Shown: one piece after another, positions 29,547-36,117 of the stretch | How the letters are laid out: every line of letters starts with the position of its first letter | How positions within the stretch are numbered: position 1 is the stretch's first letter | Assembly: GCA_012727425.1 (NCBI GenBank) | Contig: JAAYHQ010000032.1 | Location: forward strand, 1-55,372 | Length of the DNA stretch: 55,372 nt | Direction of reading: 5' to 3' | Origin: Bacillota bacterium | Lineage (GTDB): Bacteria; Bacillota; UBA4882; UBA10575 | Translations under genes and position numbers: made by a program | The notes under the pieces: generated by a model | The model's database searches: none | Seen by the model: only the letters and a program-made list of their open reading frames with translations | What the model was told of the DNA's origin: nothing

Positions 29547-29575
29547 CCGACAGTAAATACTGGATTGACTATAAT
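29547..29575 (+). promoter_or_regulatory. Promoter of the trp operon
   Basis: CCGACA (29547-29552) is followed after 17 bases by a consensus TATAAT (29570-29575). The -35 matches four of six positions. Transcription would begin near 29582. Confidence 0.65.
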
Positions 29576-29786
29576 TAGTGAAAATTGGCAAAGCCAGCAA
29601 CCATTCGTTCCCGCATACTACAACCCAGGTGGACAAGTCCAACCTCATCGCCAAAATTTGGTTCCACCAAAAGTATCGTATAGTTTAGCGCAGGTGCAGC
29701 ATAGAAATGTAGGGAGGAGCTTCCCGCCCGTTTCCCCGCTGGGGAACCGGATAACACCGGGTAGTCCTTGCTCTTTCCTTTGCCTT

Positions 29787-29829
29787 GAGTTTAGCTTAGC
29801 ATAGTTGAGTTGAGTCAAGACGAGCCGAG
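29787..29829 (+). promoter_or_regulatory. TRAP (MtrB) binding array in the trp leader
   Basis: Nine NAG triplets occur at an exact 5-nt period: GAG 29787, TAG 29792, TAG 29797, TAG 29802, GAG 29807, GAG 29812, AAG 29817, GAG 29822, GAG 29827. Eight are the (G/U)AG form that the Trp-activated TRAP ring binds, with two-base spacers that vary in sequence. Bacillus subtilis TRAP binds eleven such triplets in the trp leader. The array ends three bases before the antiterminator strand, so bound TRAP would favour the terminator. Confidence 0.88.
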
Positions 29830-29831
29830 AA

Positions 29832-29914
29832 GTATGGTTCTTGCTGTTCATTACCTTATTCACTTTTGTTCAGTGCGCAAAAGACCATGCTCCTAGGAGT
29901 CGTGGTCTTTTTTT
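29832..29914 (+). terminator. trp attenuator: antiterminator and intrinsic terminator
   Basis: The terminator hairpin pairs AAAGACCATG (29880-29889) with the CGTGGTCTTT side (901-910 of the same line) around CTCCTAGGAG, and runs into TTTT (29911-29914). The competing antiterminator pairs GTATGGTTCTT (29832-29842) with AAGACCATGC (29881-29890), with one bulged base and one G-U pair. The two structures are mutually exclusive because both use 29881-29890. Confidence 0.88.
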
Positions 29915-29936
29915 ACTTTCCGCAAAATAAAGAAAA

Positions 29937-29957
29937 GAGGAGCTGAGTTGAGTTGAG
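29937..29957 (+). promoter_or_regulatory. TRAP-like triplets over the trpE ribosome binding site
   Basis: GAG triplets at 29940, 29945, 29950 and 29955 keep the 5-nt period, with one more GAG at 29937. They overlap the Shine-Dalgarno GAGGAG and the TTG start of trpE. TRAP binding here would directly block trpE translation. Confidence 0.65.
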
Positions 29958-31506
29958 ACCAGAATCGTTTTTTACGGACCTGCCCCCCCGGCACCTCCCC
30001 TCCCCCAACGACTGCTGTCAGGTAAACCGCTTGGGTTTGGAACGGTACCGCCAATTGGTGGCTGCCGGGTACCATTATATCCCGGTCTATACCGAACAAC
30101 CCAACGACGCGGAGACCCCAATCACGATCTTTACCAAGTTAACCGAAGGAAAAGGCCGGTTTTTGCTGGAAAGCTTTGAACGAAACCACCAGAAAAGCCG
30201 CTACTCCTTTATTGGCTGGAACCCGTTGCTGACCCTAAAAGCAACAGGTGATGAATTGACGGTCATGACTAGAGATGGCATGACGGTCCATAAGGGAGAC
30301 CCGCTGGCGGAGGTCAAGAAGAAGTTGGACGCTTTACGGGTCGCTCCCCTGCCGGAACTAGCCCCCTTTTATGGCGGTGCCATCGGTTATCTCGGCTATG
30401 ATTACGTGCGGCAGATGCATCATCTGCCGAGCACAACCCGGCCGGTAACCGACTTGCCCGATCTTTACTGGGTTGTCCCCCAATATCTCGTTCGGGTTGA
30501 CCATCTGACCCACAAAATAACCGTGATCGTCTTGACGCGGGTCAATCCGGCGGATCCGGATAAGGATTATGAAAATGCCGTCCGGGAACTGGTGTTGATC
30601 AATAACCGGTTGGACCGGACCCTCCCCATGGCCCCGCTCCCCAACGTGGTCCCGGCCAATCATCCCGTTTCCCGGTTCACAACACTTTCCCGCCGTGAAT
30701 ATATGGACCGCGTCTTACAAGTGAAAGAATATATCCGGACCGGGGAAGTCCAACAAGTAGTGCTCTCGCAAAGGATCATCCAAGAATACACCGGCGACCC
30801 CTTCGGCTTCTACCGGGTACTCCGGTCGCTTAACCCTTCACCTTACCTTTTTTACCTCGATTTTGGCGACTTCCAACTGGCCGGTTCTTCACCGGAGACG
30901 ATGGTCCGCCTGGAAGACGGTGTGGTCACCTTAAAACCGATCGCCGGAACCCGGCACCGTGGGGCAACCGCCAGCGATGATGAACGGCTCCGGCAGGAAC
31001 TCTTGGCCGACGAGAAAGAGCAGGCCGAACATATGATCCTGGTTGAACTTGGCCGGAATGAACTCAACCAGGTCTGCCGGTTTGGGAGCATCCGCCTGAC
31101 CGAACTCATGACGGTTGAGATTTATTCCCATGTCATGCACCTCGTCTCTGTCCTGCAGGGCGAATTGCTGCCGGCCTTTTCCGGTACTGACCTAATCCGG
31201 GCAGTCTTCCCGGCCGGCACTCTGACCGGCGCCCCAAAACCACGCGCCCTCGAACTCATTGAAGCACTGGAACCAACCCGCCGGGAGTTTTACGGCGGTT
31301 GTGTTGGTTACCTGGGCTTCAACGGAAACCTCGATACTTGTATTACCATCCGGACGGTCTTATTCTACGGTAATCAGGCCCATTTGCAAGTTGGTGCCGG
31401 GATTGTCGCCGCTTCCGATCCGGCAAAAGAATATGAAGAAACCCTGAATAAGGCGGCAGCCCTCTTGATCGCCCTAAACCGGGCCCAAGGCCGCGCCACA
31501 AGTTAG
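29953..31506 (+). CDS. trpE: Anthranilate synthase component I
   Basis: TrpE (517 residues) makes anthranilate from chorismate with ammonia from TrpG. LLES at 71-74 is the tryptophan feedback-inhibition motif. The chorismate-binding C-terminal domain has GSSPETMVRLEDG, IAGTRHRG, DEKEQAEHMILVELGRNEL and FPAGTLTGAPKPRA. The TTG at 29953 is ten bases after GAGGAG; this gives an N-terminus about 25 residues longer than many homologues, and later TTG codons near 30030 are possible starts without a good ribosome binding site. No trpG follows, so the glutaminase must be encoded elsewhere. Confidence 0.95.
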   Translation: MRPESFFTDLPPRHLPSPNDCCQVNRLGLERYRQLVAAGYHYIPVYTEQPNDAETPITIFTKLTEGKGRFLLESFERNHQKSRYSFIGWNPLLTLKATGDELTVMTRDGMTVHKGDPLAEVKKKLDALRVAPLPELAPFYGGAIGYLGYDYVRQMHHLPSTTRPVTDLPDLYWVVPQYLVRVDHLTHKITVIVLTRVNPADPDKDYENAVRELVLINNRLDRTLPMAPLPNVVPANHPVSRFTTLSRREYMDRVLQVKEYIRTGEVQQVVLSQRIIQEYTGDPFGFYRVLRSLNPSPYLFYLDFGDFQLAGSSPETMVRLEDGVVTLKPIAGTRHRGATASDDERLRQELLADEKEQAEHMILVELGRNELNQVCRFGSIRLTELMTVEIYSHVMHLVSVLQGELLPAFSGTDLIRAVFPAGTLTGAPKPRALELIEALEPTRREFYGGCVGYLGFNGNLDTCITIRTVLFYGNQAHLQVGAGIVAASDPAKEYEETLNKAAALLIALNRAQGRATS

Positions 31507-31577
31507 ACCGGCAAAGGCCCGCTTTGTTTCACCACAACGTGAGGCTGTTTAAATGGCCCTTAACTTTAATCACAGTC

Positions 31578-31595
31578 GAGAGGAGTTGAGCCGAG
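31578..31595 (+). promoter_or_regulatory. TRAP-like triplets over the trpD ribosome binding site
   Basis: GAG triplets start at 31578, 31583, 31588 and 31593, again at a 5-nt period, and the last one abuts the trpD ATG. They include the Shine-Dalgarno AGAGGAG (31579-31585). Four triplets alone are few for a stable TRAP site, but their phase and position match the leader arrays. Confidence 0.6.
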
Positions 31596-32621
31596 ATGAT
31601 TAAGGAGAGTTTAACCAAGTTGGTCCGGGGTGAAAACCTGGACGAAAGCGAGATGATCGCCGCCACCAGCGCGATCATGGAAGGCCGCGCTTCACCCGCG
31701 CAGATCGGCAGTTTTTTAACGGCGTTGCGTTTCAAAGGCGAAACGGTGGCCGAGATCACCGGTGCGGCCCGGGTGATGCGGGAAAAGGCCGTCAAGATCA
31801 ACTTTAAAGCCCCGACCGTCATTGACACCTGCGGGACCGGCGGCGACGGCGCCCAAACCTTTAATATTTCGACCACGGTTGCCTTTATCGTGGCCGCGGC
31901 CGGTATCCCCGTGGCCAAACACGGCAACCGGGCAATCTCCAGTCGCTGCGGAAGCGCCGATGTGCTGGAAGCCTTAGGGGTTAAGGTTGATCTTTCCCCG
32001 GCGCAAGTTGAAGCCTGTCTGGAAGAAACGGGCATCGGCTTTATATTTGCCCCCCTTTTTCACCAGGCGATGAAGCATGCCGCTGGTCCCCGCAAGGAAC
32101 TGGGGTTCCGGACTGTCTTTAACCTCCTGGGGCCGTTGACCAATCCGGCCAACGCCAACTGCCAATTGGTCGGGGTTTTTGATCCCGCCCTGACCGAAGT
32201 GGTGGCGCAAGTATTACACCGCCTCGGGGTCGCACGGGCGGTAGTAGTTCACGGCGGTGACGGCCTGGATGAATTGTCGCTGGACGGGGTGAACAAAGCC
32301 AGTATCTTACGGAACGGTCAGATCTCAACCGTCCATTTCCAAGCATCGGATCTGGGCTTGACAACCGCCCCCAAGGCCGCCTTGACCGGCGGTGGTCCTC
32401 TGGAAAACGCCCGGATCACCCAGGCGATCCTGCAGGGGGTCGAAACCGGCCCACGGCTTGATGTTGTCCTCCTCAATGCGGCCGCCGCCTTGTTCGCCGC
32501 CGATATGGTCGGCGATTTCAAAGAAGGGATCGCCTTCGCCCGTAAACTGGTGCAGGAAGGAAAGGCCTATGCCAAATTGGAACAATTACGCCAGGTGGGG
32601 AGGCAAGCCCAGTGTTCTTAA
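31596..32621 (+). CDS. trpD: Anthranilate phosphoribosyltransferase
   Basis: TrpD (341 residues) joins anthranilate to PRPP. The PRPP loop GTGGD is at 80-84 and KHGNR at 108-112; TVIDTCGTGGDGAQTFNIST is diagnostic. It is the stand-alone form without a fused TrpG. A 89-base gap after trpE contains the triplet array that covers its ribosome binding site. Its end overlaps trpC by ten bases. Confidence 0.97.
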   Translation: MIKESLTKLVRGENLDESEMIAATSAIMEGRASPAQIGSFLTALRFKGETVAEITGAARVMREKAVKINFKAPTVIDTCGTGGDGAQTFNISTTVAFIVAAAGIPVAKHGNRAISSRCGSADVLEALGVKVDLSPAQVEACLEETGIGFIFAPLFHQAMKHAAGPRKELGFRTVFNLLGPLTNPANANCQLVGVFDPALTEVVAQVLHRLGVARAVVVHGGDGLDELSLDGVNKASILRNGQISTVHFQASDLGLTTAPKAALTGGGPLENARITQAILQGVETGPRLDVVLLNAAAALFAADMVGDFKEGIAFARKLVQEGKAYAKLEQLRQVGRQAQCS

Positions 32622-33403
32622 AACGGATTTTACAGGCGAAAGCGGCCGAAGTAGCGGCGCGGAAGGTGCAAACCCCCTTTGCCCAATTGGAACAAAAGAT
32701 CAAACACGCCCCGGCGATCCGCCCTTTCCGGCCCAGGCTGACCGGGGAGCGGATTCAGGTGATTGCCGAGATCAAACAGGCTTCACCTTCAAAGGGCCTG
32801 CTTTGCCCCAATTTTCAACCGGTCCGTCTGGCGCGGACCTATGAAGCATCCGGTGCCGCTGCCCTTTCGGTCTTAACCGACGAAAAATTCTTCCTTGGCT
32901 CCCTGGACCACTTGGCACAGGTCAAAAAGGAGACCGCAAAACTTCCGGTCCTCCGGAAGGATTTTATCATTGATCCGTATCAAATCTACGAGGCGCGTGC
33001 CTACGGTGCCGATGCAGTCCTGTTGATCGTCGCGGCTTTGACCCCGCCTTCACTGGCCGCCTATCTGAAGGAAACAAAAGCCTTGGGGATGGATGCTCTC
33101 ATCGAAATCCACAACCAAACGGAACTGGCCGTTGCCCTGGAAGCGGGGGCCGATCTCATCGGGATTAATAACCGGGATTTAAGGACCTTCAAAGTTGACC
33201 TGGAAACCACCTTCCGTTTGCTGGAGGAAATCCCCAAGGACAAGGTGGTCGTCGCCGAAAGCGGAATCAAAAGCGGTGGTGATCTAAAACGGTTGGCCTT
33301 GGCCGGGGTCAACGCGGCTTTAGTGGGGGAAGCTCTGGTCACCGCCGCTGATCCGGGAGCAAAAATCAAAGAACTATGCGGAGACGCCCATGGTTCCGGT
33401 TAA
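32612..33403 (+). CDS. trpC: Indole-3-glycerol phosphate synthase
   Basis: TrpC (263 residues) closes the indole ring in the fourth step of the pathway. The TIM barrel shows VIAEIKQASPSKGLL, VLRKDFIIDPYQIYEARAYGAD, GINNRDLRTF and VVAESGIKSGGD. The start is GTG, eight bases after GGGGAGG, inside the end of trpD. Its end overlaps trpF by 14 bases. Confidence 0.97.
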   Translation: MFLKRILQAKAAEVAARKVQTPFAQLEQKIKHAPAIRPFRPRLTGERIQVIAEIKQASPSKGLLCPNFQPVRLARTYEASGAAALSVLTDEKFFLGSLDHLAQVKKETAKLPVLRKDFIIDPYQIYEARAYGADAVLLIVAALTPPSLAAYLKETKALGMDALIEIHNQTELAVALEAGADLIGINNRDLRTFKVDLETTFRLLEEIPKDKVVVAESGIKSGGDLKRLALAGVNAALVGEALVTAADPGAKIKELCGDAHGSG

Positions 33404-34010
33404 AATCTGCGGGATCACCAACTTGCCCGACGCCCTGCTCTGCCAAAGATACGGCGTTACCGCCCTAGGCTTTGTATTTGCTCCCTCACCACGCCAAGTC
33501 ACCACCGCACAGGTGGCGGCGATAACCCGCCATCTCTCCCCTTTCATCCTTAAAATCGGGGTTTTTGTGGATGAAGATCCCTACCGCATTCACCGGATCA
33601 TGCAGGAATGTGGCCTTGACCTGGCCCAGTTGCACGGGGACGAGACCCCGGAACACTGTAACGTCTTGGCGGGACGGGTGATCAAGGCCTTTCGGGCCGG
33701 CCGCGACCGCCCCGCCCCACAATGGCAAGGGGCGGCCCTCCGCGGGATCCTCGTCGATTCTTACGCGGCTAATACCTATGGCGGAACCGGCCGGGTTTTC
33801 GACTGGAACTTGGTGGCGGACTACCGCAAGCTTGGTTTTCCGCTGATCTTGGCCGGCGGCTTAAACCCGGACAACATCGGTGCTGCTCTCCGCCGTGTCC
33901 AACCGGACGGGATCGATCTGTCCAGCGGCGTTGAAAAGCACCCGGGGGTAAAGGACCCGGAAAAAATCGCCCGCTTGATGGCAACACTCAGAAGTTTCGC
34001 CCCCAAATAA
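33390..34010 (+). CDS. trpF: Phosphoribosylanthranilate isomerase
   Basis: TrpF (206 residues) isomerises phosphoribosylanthranilate to the ribulose form. KICGITN near the N-terminus carries the catalytic Cys, and the phosphate-binding blocks LAGGLNPDNI and GIDLSSGVEKHPGVKDPEKI are typical. It is a separate gene rather than a trpC fusion. A 134-base gap separates it from trpB. Confidence 0.96.
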   Translation: MVPVKICGITNLPDALLCQRYGVTALGFVFAPSPRQVTTAQVAAITRHLSPFILKIGVFVDEDPYRIHRIMQECGLDLAQLHGDETPEHCNVLAGRVIKAFRAGRDRPAPQWQGAALRGILVDSYAANTYGGTGRVFDWNLVADYRKLGFPLILAGGLNPDNIGAALRRVQPDGIDLSSGVEKHPGVKDPEKIARLMATLRSFAPK

Positions 34011-34144
34011 ACCGCAGGATTGGACCCAACCTGAAAACGTGGGCAAGTTGGTTTCTACGGGTAAATGACCCGAAATCCACCTGGTATACAAATAAAACCA
34101 CCGGGGCAAAGGTTCTTCTCCGCTGATCTAAAAAGACCAAGGAG

Positions 34145-35341
34145 GTGTCTCCCATCGCCAGCTTTCAAGAATGGTATTTTGGTGAATACGGCGGCCGCTA
34201 TGTGCCCGAAACCCTAATGGCCGCTTTAGACGAATTGGCCGCGGCTTACCAGCGCTACGCCACCACGCCCGAATTTCAACAGGAATTGGCCGAACTTTCC
34301 CGCTTTTACGCCGGCCGGCCCACTCCTTTGTATTATGCCGAACGGTTCAGCCGTGAACTTAGTCAGGGCCGCATCTACCTTAAACGGGAAGATCTGACCC
34401 ATACTGGCGCCCATAAGATCAATAACGCTTTAGGCCAAATTTTACTGGCCAAGCGGATGGGGAAACGGCGGATCATTGCGGAGACCGGTGCCGGACAACA
34501 CGGGGTTGCTACCGCCACCGTTGCCGCCAGGTTCGGTTTGGAATGCGTGGTTTACATGGGCGAATTAGATATGGCCCGGCAAGCCCTGAACGTCTTCCGG
34601 ATGAAACTATTGGGGGCCGAGGTCCGGCCGGTCACTTCTGGAAGCAGAACTTTAAAGGACGCCACCAATGAGGCGATTCGGGACTGGGTGACCAATGTGG
34701 ATGATACCTATTACCTCATTGGCTCCGTTGTCGGACCCCACCCCTATCCGGAGATCGTCCGGGATTTCCAAACGGTAATCGGCCGAGAGACCAAGGCCCA
34801 ATTGGCCGAACTTGCCGGCCGGCTTCCCGACTACGTAGTGGCCTGTGTGGGCGGGGGAAGTAATGCGATGGGGGTTTTCACCCCCTTTCTCCCGGACCCA
34901 AACGTAAAACTGGTGGGGGTTGAGGCGGCCGGCAAAGGTCTGAATACCACCGAACATGCCGCCGCCCTGGCCAAAGGTAAGCCGGGCATCCTCCATGGCG
35001 CCAAAAGCTACGTTCTCGCCGATCCGGACGGGCAAATCATAGAGGCTTCTTCCATCTCGGCGGGCCTGGATTACCCCGGCGTTGGACCGGAACACAGTTT
35101 CTTAAAAGACAGCGGCCGGGTGGAATACCAGACCATTGATGATCAGGAAGCCTTAGACGCCTTCGTCTTTTTAACCCGGACCGAAGGGATCATTCCCGCC
35201 CTGGAAAGCGCCCATGCCGTCGCGGCGGGCATGAAACTCGCCCGCAAGCTCAAACGGGATGAGATCATGGTCATTAACCTTTCCGGCCGGGGCGACAAGG
35301 ATATCCCAACGGTCGCGGCGACAATGGGGGTGAAATTATGA
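34145..35341 (+). CDS. trpB: Tryptophan synthase beta chain
   Basis: TrpB (398 residues from the GTG at 34145) joins indole and serine using PLP. Lys91 in [13 protein letters not shown] forms the Schiff base, and GGGSNAMG binds the PLP phosphate. The start is unusual. The GTG at 34145 lies inside the AAGGAGG ribosome binding site (34139-34145). The only codon at proper spacing from that site is ATC at 34154, so initiation may use ATC. No TRAP-type triplets were seen here. Confidence 0.96.
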
Positions 35342-36117
35342 ACCGAGTAGCCATGCGCTTCGAAGAACTGAAGAAGACCGGTCGCAAGGCCTTTATTCCT
35401 TATATTGTTGGCGGTGATCCGGATTTGACCAGTTTACCGCTGGTCCTGGAGACCCTGGTGCAAAGCGGGGCCGACCTGATCGAAATCGGGGTCCCTTTTT
35501 CCGACCCGTTGGCCGACGGACCGGTGATCCAAGCGGCCAGTGTCCGCGCCCGGCAAAATGGTTGTACCCTGGATAAACTCTTTTCCACCCTCACACCGGT
35601 AGCCGCCCGGCTTCCGGTACCACTAATCTTGATGGTCTACTACAACCAGCTCTACCTCAGGGGTGTCTCCCGTTTCTTAGCGGAAGCGAATACGGCCGGG
35701 GTCGCCGGACTAATCATCCCCGACCTGCCGCCGGAGGACGCTACCGAGTTGCGTGCCTCAGCCGCTGCGCTCGGGATCGGCTTGAATTTTTTAGTCGCGC
35801 CCACCAGTAAGGAAGAACGGATTCGTTTGGCGGCCGCCGCCAGCACCGGATTCTTATACACAGTCTCCGTCAAAGGGGTGACCGGAGCACGGCACACCCT
35901 GCCCCCCGAATTACCCGGCTTCATCCAGCGGGTTAAAACCCTGAGCCCGCGCCCGGTGGCCGTAGGTTTTGGGATCAACACCCCGGAGCAGGCCCGGATG
36001 ATCGCGGGCCTCGCTGACGGAGTCATCGTCGGCAGCGCTCTGGTCCAGGCTATTGCCGAAGACCCGCAATTAAAAAAAATGGCTTCCCTCGCCCGTACGC
36101 TAAGAGAGGCCATTTAA
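35338..36117 (+). CDS. trpA: Tryptophan synthase alpha chain
   Basis: TrpA (259 residues) splits indole-3-glycerol phosphate and channels indole to TrpB. The catalytic Glu49 ([12 protein letters not shown]) and Asp60 have the same numbers as in the E. coli enzyme. Its ATG overlaps the trpB stop in an ATGA junction. It is the last gene of the operon and converges on truA. Confidence 0.97.

Follow-up and report, generated by a model that had tools for sequence, protein, structure and literature searches.

The window analysed here, a stretch of 55,372 nt from a Bacillota bacterium, carries on its forward strand a trpEDCFBA operon behind a leader with a predicted TRAP-binding array and an intrinsic terminator. 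The initial annotation had recognized the array in the leader as a TRAP site and had missed two further TRAP-like arrays within the operon (29930–29962 and 31573–31595). The features of the locus are as follows:

29547–29575, + strand: likely trp promoter, CCGACA-17-TATAAT (consensus scan)
29787–29829, + strand: predicted leader TRAP-binding array, GAG, TAG, TAG, TAG, GAG, GAG, AAG, GAG, GAG with 2-nt spacers
29825–29842, + strand: 5' strand of the antiterminator, last TRAP triplet included (folding of six leaders; duplex against shuffles)
29881–29897, + strand: strand common to the antiterminator (3' side) and the terminator (5' arm and loop) (folding)
29881–29914, + strand: intrinsic terminator (attenuator), 12-pair stem, CTAG loop and 7-T run (folding)
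29930–29962, + strand: second TRAP-like array of seven NAG triplets, four of them GAG in a row, spanning the trpE Shine-Dalgarno (GAGGAG) and its TTG codon
29953–31506, + strand: trpE, anthranilate synthase component I, 517 aa, with its TTG start inside the second array
31573–31595, + strand: third TRAP-like array, CAGtcGAGagGAGttGAGccGAG, five NAG triplets, over the trpD Shine-Dalgarno and flush with the ATG
31596–32621, + strand: trpD, anthranilate phosphoribosyltransferase
32612–36117, + strand: trpC, trpF, trpB and trpA, named from reading the translations, in an order conserved in relatives

The gap between trpE and trpD is about 90 nt (window 31507–31595), and trpD follows trpE directly with no trpG between them. 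No trpG/pabA amidotransferase exceeded the family cut-off in the genome (assembly 95.7% complete); the gene may be missing from the assembly, or ammonia may serve as the substrate of anthranilate synthase.

Leader array and promoter

The leader array (GAGttTAGctTAGcaTAGttGAGttGAGtcAAGacGAGccGAG) consists of nine NAG triplets, eight of them G/TAG and one AAG, at an exact 5-nt period, as had been noted in the initial annotation, and had no match in 120 dinucleotide-shuffled 55-kb strands. Scanning of both strands of the window with a scorer that permits spacers of 1–4 nt returned only three arrays scoring at least 7, all on the + strand and all within the trp operon. Their scores were 18.5 (29787–29829), 11.2 (29930–29962) and 10.0 (31573–31595), against a maximum of 9.7 in the shuffled strands. 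The leader array is also the sole occurrence of a zero-mismatch six-triplet pattern in the whole 2.18-Mb genome; the reversed-pattern control for this search was uninformative because GAG is identical when read backwards. Five near relatives carry 10–11 triplets at the same place in the leader, and across the relatives the array is kept at 9–12 triplets with differing spacers.

The promoter, which the initial annotation had placed about 200 nt upstream of the array, is supported at that distance, and transcription of the operon is expected to start near 29582. Matching boxes (TTGACA-17-TATAAT) lie at the corresponding place in two relatives, G003 and G007. An Rfam search of the leader returned no known RNA family, and the T-box model (RF00230) had no match anywhere in the window, the trp leader included.

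Terminator and antiterminator

The terminator stem (29881–29909) reads AAGACCATGCTC-CTAG-GAGTCGTGGTCTT and is followed by the T-run, with a folding energy of -14.9 kcal/mol; an intrinsic terminator had been noted here in the initial annotation. Folding of the 85-nt stretch 29831–29915 gave z = -2.8 relative to shuffles. Direct minimum-energy folding of the leader did not yield the antiterminator as the optimum, and comparative folding was therefore used on six leaders of the genus and family (the genome itself, G000, and G003, G005, G006, G007 and G013). In all six, the element (C/U)AUGGU-CUU right after the array is a copy of the terminator 3' arm and can pair with the 5' arm. With the last two triplets as the start and the terminator loop as the end of the folded segment, the antiterminator reaches -15.3 to -18.3 kcal/mol in the six leaders, as compared with -12.0 to -15.3 kcal/mol for the isolated terminators and -8.8 to -14.2 kcal/mol for the antiterminator without the array. 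The last triplet, as C(C/U)GAG, forms part of it and pairs with the terminator loop region, so that TRAP bound to this triplet would be expected to favour the terminator.

In the window, 29825–29842 pairs with 29881–29897, a strand within which AAGACCATGCTCYTAGGAGTC is present in six of the six relatives compared. The competition between antiterminator and terminator proposed in the initial annotation is supported, with the correction that the 5' strand of the antiterminator, set there at 29832, starts at 29825, inside the last triplet unit. Against shuffled spacers, only 0–18 of 2,000 gave a duplex as good in five relatives; the genome's own duplex was equalled by 41 of 2,000, modestly above chance. 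The six-leader DNA alignment splits the antiterminator strand, and the minimum fold of the genome's whole leader as free RNA is a self-folded array plus the terminator, not the antiterminator. Among the other leaders of the class and phylum that have a terminator, the best antiterminator strand begins 3–13 nt before the array end in most. The Bacillus subtilis-like logic that had been suggested for the leader is supported by the conservation of array, antiterminator, terminator and trpE in relatives.

Arrays at the trpE and trpD starts

The trpE-start array (AAGaaAAGagGAGctGAGttGAGttGAGacCAG) covers both the Shine-Dalgarno sequence and the TTG codon at 29953. Relatives likewise have an array that encloses the Shine-Dalgarno sequence and start codon (ATG or TTG) of trpE, with up to 5–6 consecutive GAG. 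We then counted arrays at gene starts using a threshold score of 9 or more. A trpD-start array is present in 20 of the 33 genomes whose trpD start could be used, including G009, where it is a purine run at threshold, and the array reaches 7–11 triplets in four genomes (G011, G016, G058 and G045). No array was found at any of the 109 other trp starts (0/26 trpC, 0/30 trpF, 0/27 trpB and 0/26 trpA), and none lies at the trpC, trpF, trpB or trpA start of the window. A named-genome TrpE scan, which does not include close relatives, served as the negative control. At its trpD starts, 0 of 48 had an array. Its 80 trpE loci, which total 696 kb and span many phyla, held five arrays of 9 or more, all in Bacillota: four lie upstream of trpE (Paenibacillus and Brevibacillus among them), and the fifth (L216:5429, a Bacillota metagenome-assembled genome) has six GAG at the start of a trpG-like gene after trpE.

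By analogy with B. subtilis trpG, trpP and ycbK, TRAP on the trpE and trpD arrays would be expected to keep ribosomes from entering. The affinity of these arrays may be low, since they have 7 and 5 NAG triplets, respectively, which is below the 9–11 triplets of B. subtilis TRAP targets (PMC4347634), and some of their GAGs are supplied by the purine-rich Shine-Dalgarno sequences.

TRAP gene and anti-TRAP

A search for mtrB, the TRAP gene, had been proposed in the initial annotation, which named a lack of any mtrB homologue as grounds for refutation. The genome does encode TRAP (79 aa; G000:C7:12114-12305), with PF02081 at E 2.2e-38 and the NCBIfam MtrB equivalog at 135 bits against a cut-off of 117. 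Comparison with 1wap indicated that the equivalents of Lys37, Lys56 and Arg58 (B. subtilis numbering), which are RNA contacts of B. subtilis TRAP (PMC7430163), are conserved in this protein and also in the class and phylum TRAPs compared. Residue 60 is Lys instead of Glu; Glu60 of B. subtilis TRAP has been tied to TRAP-driven termination (PMC7430163). Of 29 genomes of the class, 27 encode TRAP, as do 15 of 32 sampled elsewhere in the phylum. The leader is outside a Bacillaceae context, as initially remarked, but this context is not exceptional, TRAP genes being common in the class and occurring in roughly half of the genomes sampled from other classes of the phylum.

For anti-TRAP (rtpA; PF15777), a search that had likewise been proposed, nothing exceeded the cut-off in 61 genomes (the genome itself and 60 relatives), and the B. 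subtilis control was positive. Weak PF15777 matches, mostly in ORFs of about 370–400 aa, are probably DnaJ zinc fingers. A TRAP attenuator does not require anti-TRAP. In eleven relatives (L052, L053, L054, L057–L063 and L069), mtrB directly precedes the trp leader in the same orientation, so that TRAP may be transcribed together with the operon it is predicted to control. In one relative (G008, L078), mtrB lies between rplM and truA, where relatives carry the trp operon, and no trpE was found; TRAP seems to have been retained there after loss of the operon. Three further genomes (G002, G004 and G012) combine mtrB with a TRAP array at trpB2 and gave no trpE match.

Other TRAP-array loci in the lineage

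Contig C81 of the same assembly carries trpB2 (TrpB-like, NF009057) together with a T-box (RF00230, 104 bits) and, beside the start of the gene and over its ribosome-binding site, a TRAP array (G000:C81:1106-2800 region; L006:1470-1832, minus strand). The combination of T-box and TRAP array at trpB2 is repeated in relatives (L107, L108, L115 and L117), and we read UGG at the specifier position of the T-box in L107. Charging of tRNA and free Trp may therefore be integrated on one trpB2 transcript. About 2.9 kb of C81 is 99.9–100% identical to contigs of two relatives (G003:C27 and G008:C83; L104, L105 and L106), even though TrpE is only about 77% identical between G000 and G003, which suggests a misbinned contig or a recent transfer. 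The T-box/TRAP arrangement at trpB2 is independent of a possible misbinning of C81.

Several class and phylum genomes have TRAP arrays upstream of trpP-type transporter genes, some with terminators (L250, L248, L254, L247 and L246), which suggests that trpP is under transcription attenuation in these genomes. In G016, a nine-triplet TRAP-like array abuts the start of a gene for a LysE-type exporter, named from reading the sequence (L257:2104-2060). A GAG-rich array before an asnB-like gene (G000:C7, L072:2120-2081; L218 in G002) is probably no TRAP site. It resembles the repeat before mraZ in G021 (L231), with the period of roughly 10 nt of MraZ operators.

Proposed regulation and alternative explanations

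Considering these features together, the trpEDCFBA operon is very probably under TRAP control, with attenuation at the leader and ribosome blocking at trpE and trpD. Transcription would begin at the predicted start downstream of the promoter. With plentiful Trp, Trp-bound TRAP would wrap the nine-triplet array and cover its last triplet, which would prevent the antiterminator, allow the terminator at 29881–29914 to form and stop transcription before trpE. With scarce Trp, the array would be free, the antiterminator would form and the operon would be read. On read-through transcripts, TRAP would also occupy two further arrays, one across the ribosome-binding site and start codon of trpE and one across the ribosome-binding site of trpD, directly blocking ribosome entry at both genes. 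The arrays, the terminator, the competing pairing, the TRAP gene and the conservation in relatives are seen in the sequences themselves; from these we infer that binding depends on Trp, that termination takes place in vivo and that translation is repressed at the trpE and trpD arrays.

It is conceivable, though unlikely, that only the leader array is a TRAP site and that the GAG runs at trpE and trpD are extended Shine-Dalgarno sequences without regulatory meaning. GAGGAG and GAGAGGAG are good Shine-Dalgarno sequences, the genome has just four consecutive GAG at trpE and at the trpD site, and by our own estimate a few five-triplet patterns with one mismatch are expected by chance per genome. 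The absence of arrays from the other trp starts and from the control trpD loci, however, argues against this explanation, as do the longer trpD arrays and GAG runs at trpE in relatives. A more sweeping alternative, in which the leader is a plain intrinsic attenuator or answers to another Trp sensor (T-box or leader peptide) and the repeat is incidental, is very hard to sustain. The strong terminator could act without TRAP, and a T-box is present elsewhere in the assembly, at trpB2; but the leader matches neither a T-box nor another Rfam family, its array is unique genome-wide and conserved through changes of spacer, and TRAP is encoded.

A further possibility concerns how TRAP would act at the leader, namely mainly by pushing RNA polymerase off directly with the hairpin being secondary. 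Such direct termination has been proposed for B. subtilis, whose attenuator is weak (PMC3913778), and is linked to Glu60 of TRAP (PMC7430163). We consider it improbable here, as the attenuator is a strong stem with seven U and residue 60 of the TRAP is Lys. TRAP control through competition between terminator and antiterminator, with additional ribosome blocking, is the reading we prefer.

For the lineage as a whole, the evidence leans slightly towards a scheme in which TRAP, besides attenuating the trp leader, acts as a separate block to ribosomes at trpE, trpD and trpB2, while a T-box on trpB2, located before the TRAP site on the same transcript, reads uncharged tRNA-Trp, with no anti-TRAP. 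If true, a single mRNA would combine both signals, tRNA charging and free tryptophan, with no protein antagonist involved.

The TRAP attenuator is known in kind; the multi-site arrangement appears to be new, with the reservation that earlier descriptions may exist. In our literature search, which covered a few primary TRAP papers, none joined Limnochordia with TRAP or TRAP leaders with Carboxydothermus and Desulfotomaculum, and earlier trpD sites outside Bacillus are possible. These observations would place the complete TRAP mechanism, with both its protein and its RNA part, deep within an uncultured clostridia-like lineage, in a version where individual trp operon genes carry their own predicted TRAP sites. 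With mtrB often adjoining the leader on its upstream side and no anti-TRAP found, the lineage lends itself to comparative tests of how TRAP control came together, of which of its parts are ancestral and of how the charging of tRNA is sensed when anti-TRAP is missing. In addition, the leaders and ribosome-binding-site arrays of multiple genomes supply a natural series of TRAP-site variants, ranging from 4 to 13 triplets.

Comparison with known systems

The leader resembles the B. subtilis trp leader in its G/UAG array with 2-nt spacers, the antiterminator overlapping the array, the competing terminator upstream of trpE, the operon order trpEDCFBA and the encoding of TRAP in trans. It differs in having nine triplets instead of eleven, in an antiterminator overlap limited to the last triplet, in a strong terminator and in the approximately 200 nt of leader before the array. 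The triplet number, with one AAG among the nine, and the spacers still fall within the range of about 9–11 (G/U)AG repeats, 2–3 nt apart, that marks TRAP-regulated trp leaders. Unlike the TRAP/anti-TRAP circuit of B. subtilis, no anti-TRAP was found here. At the trpE ribosome-binding site, a direct array is present in the window, whereas B. subtilis uses a TRAP-induced structure (PMC2311275).

TRAP-blocked ribosome-binding sites are known from B. subtilis trpG, trpP (yhaG) and ycbK (PMC4347634; PMC13170310). The NAG arrays described here overlap the Shine-Dalgarno sequences in the same manner and a ribosome block is expected, but the targets are trpE, trpD and trpB2, and the trpE and trpD arrays have 7 and 5 triplets as against about 9. 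In B. subtilis, trpD has no site of its own and is controlled through translational coupling to trpE via a 29-nt overlap (PMC2311275), whereas here trpD is separated from trpE by the gap of about 90 nt and has its own array. Given this distance, the trpD site would serve the same end as the coupling in B. subtilis, and the outcome would match, i.e., trpD translation falls with plentiful Trp.
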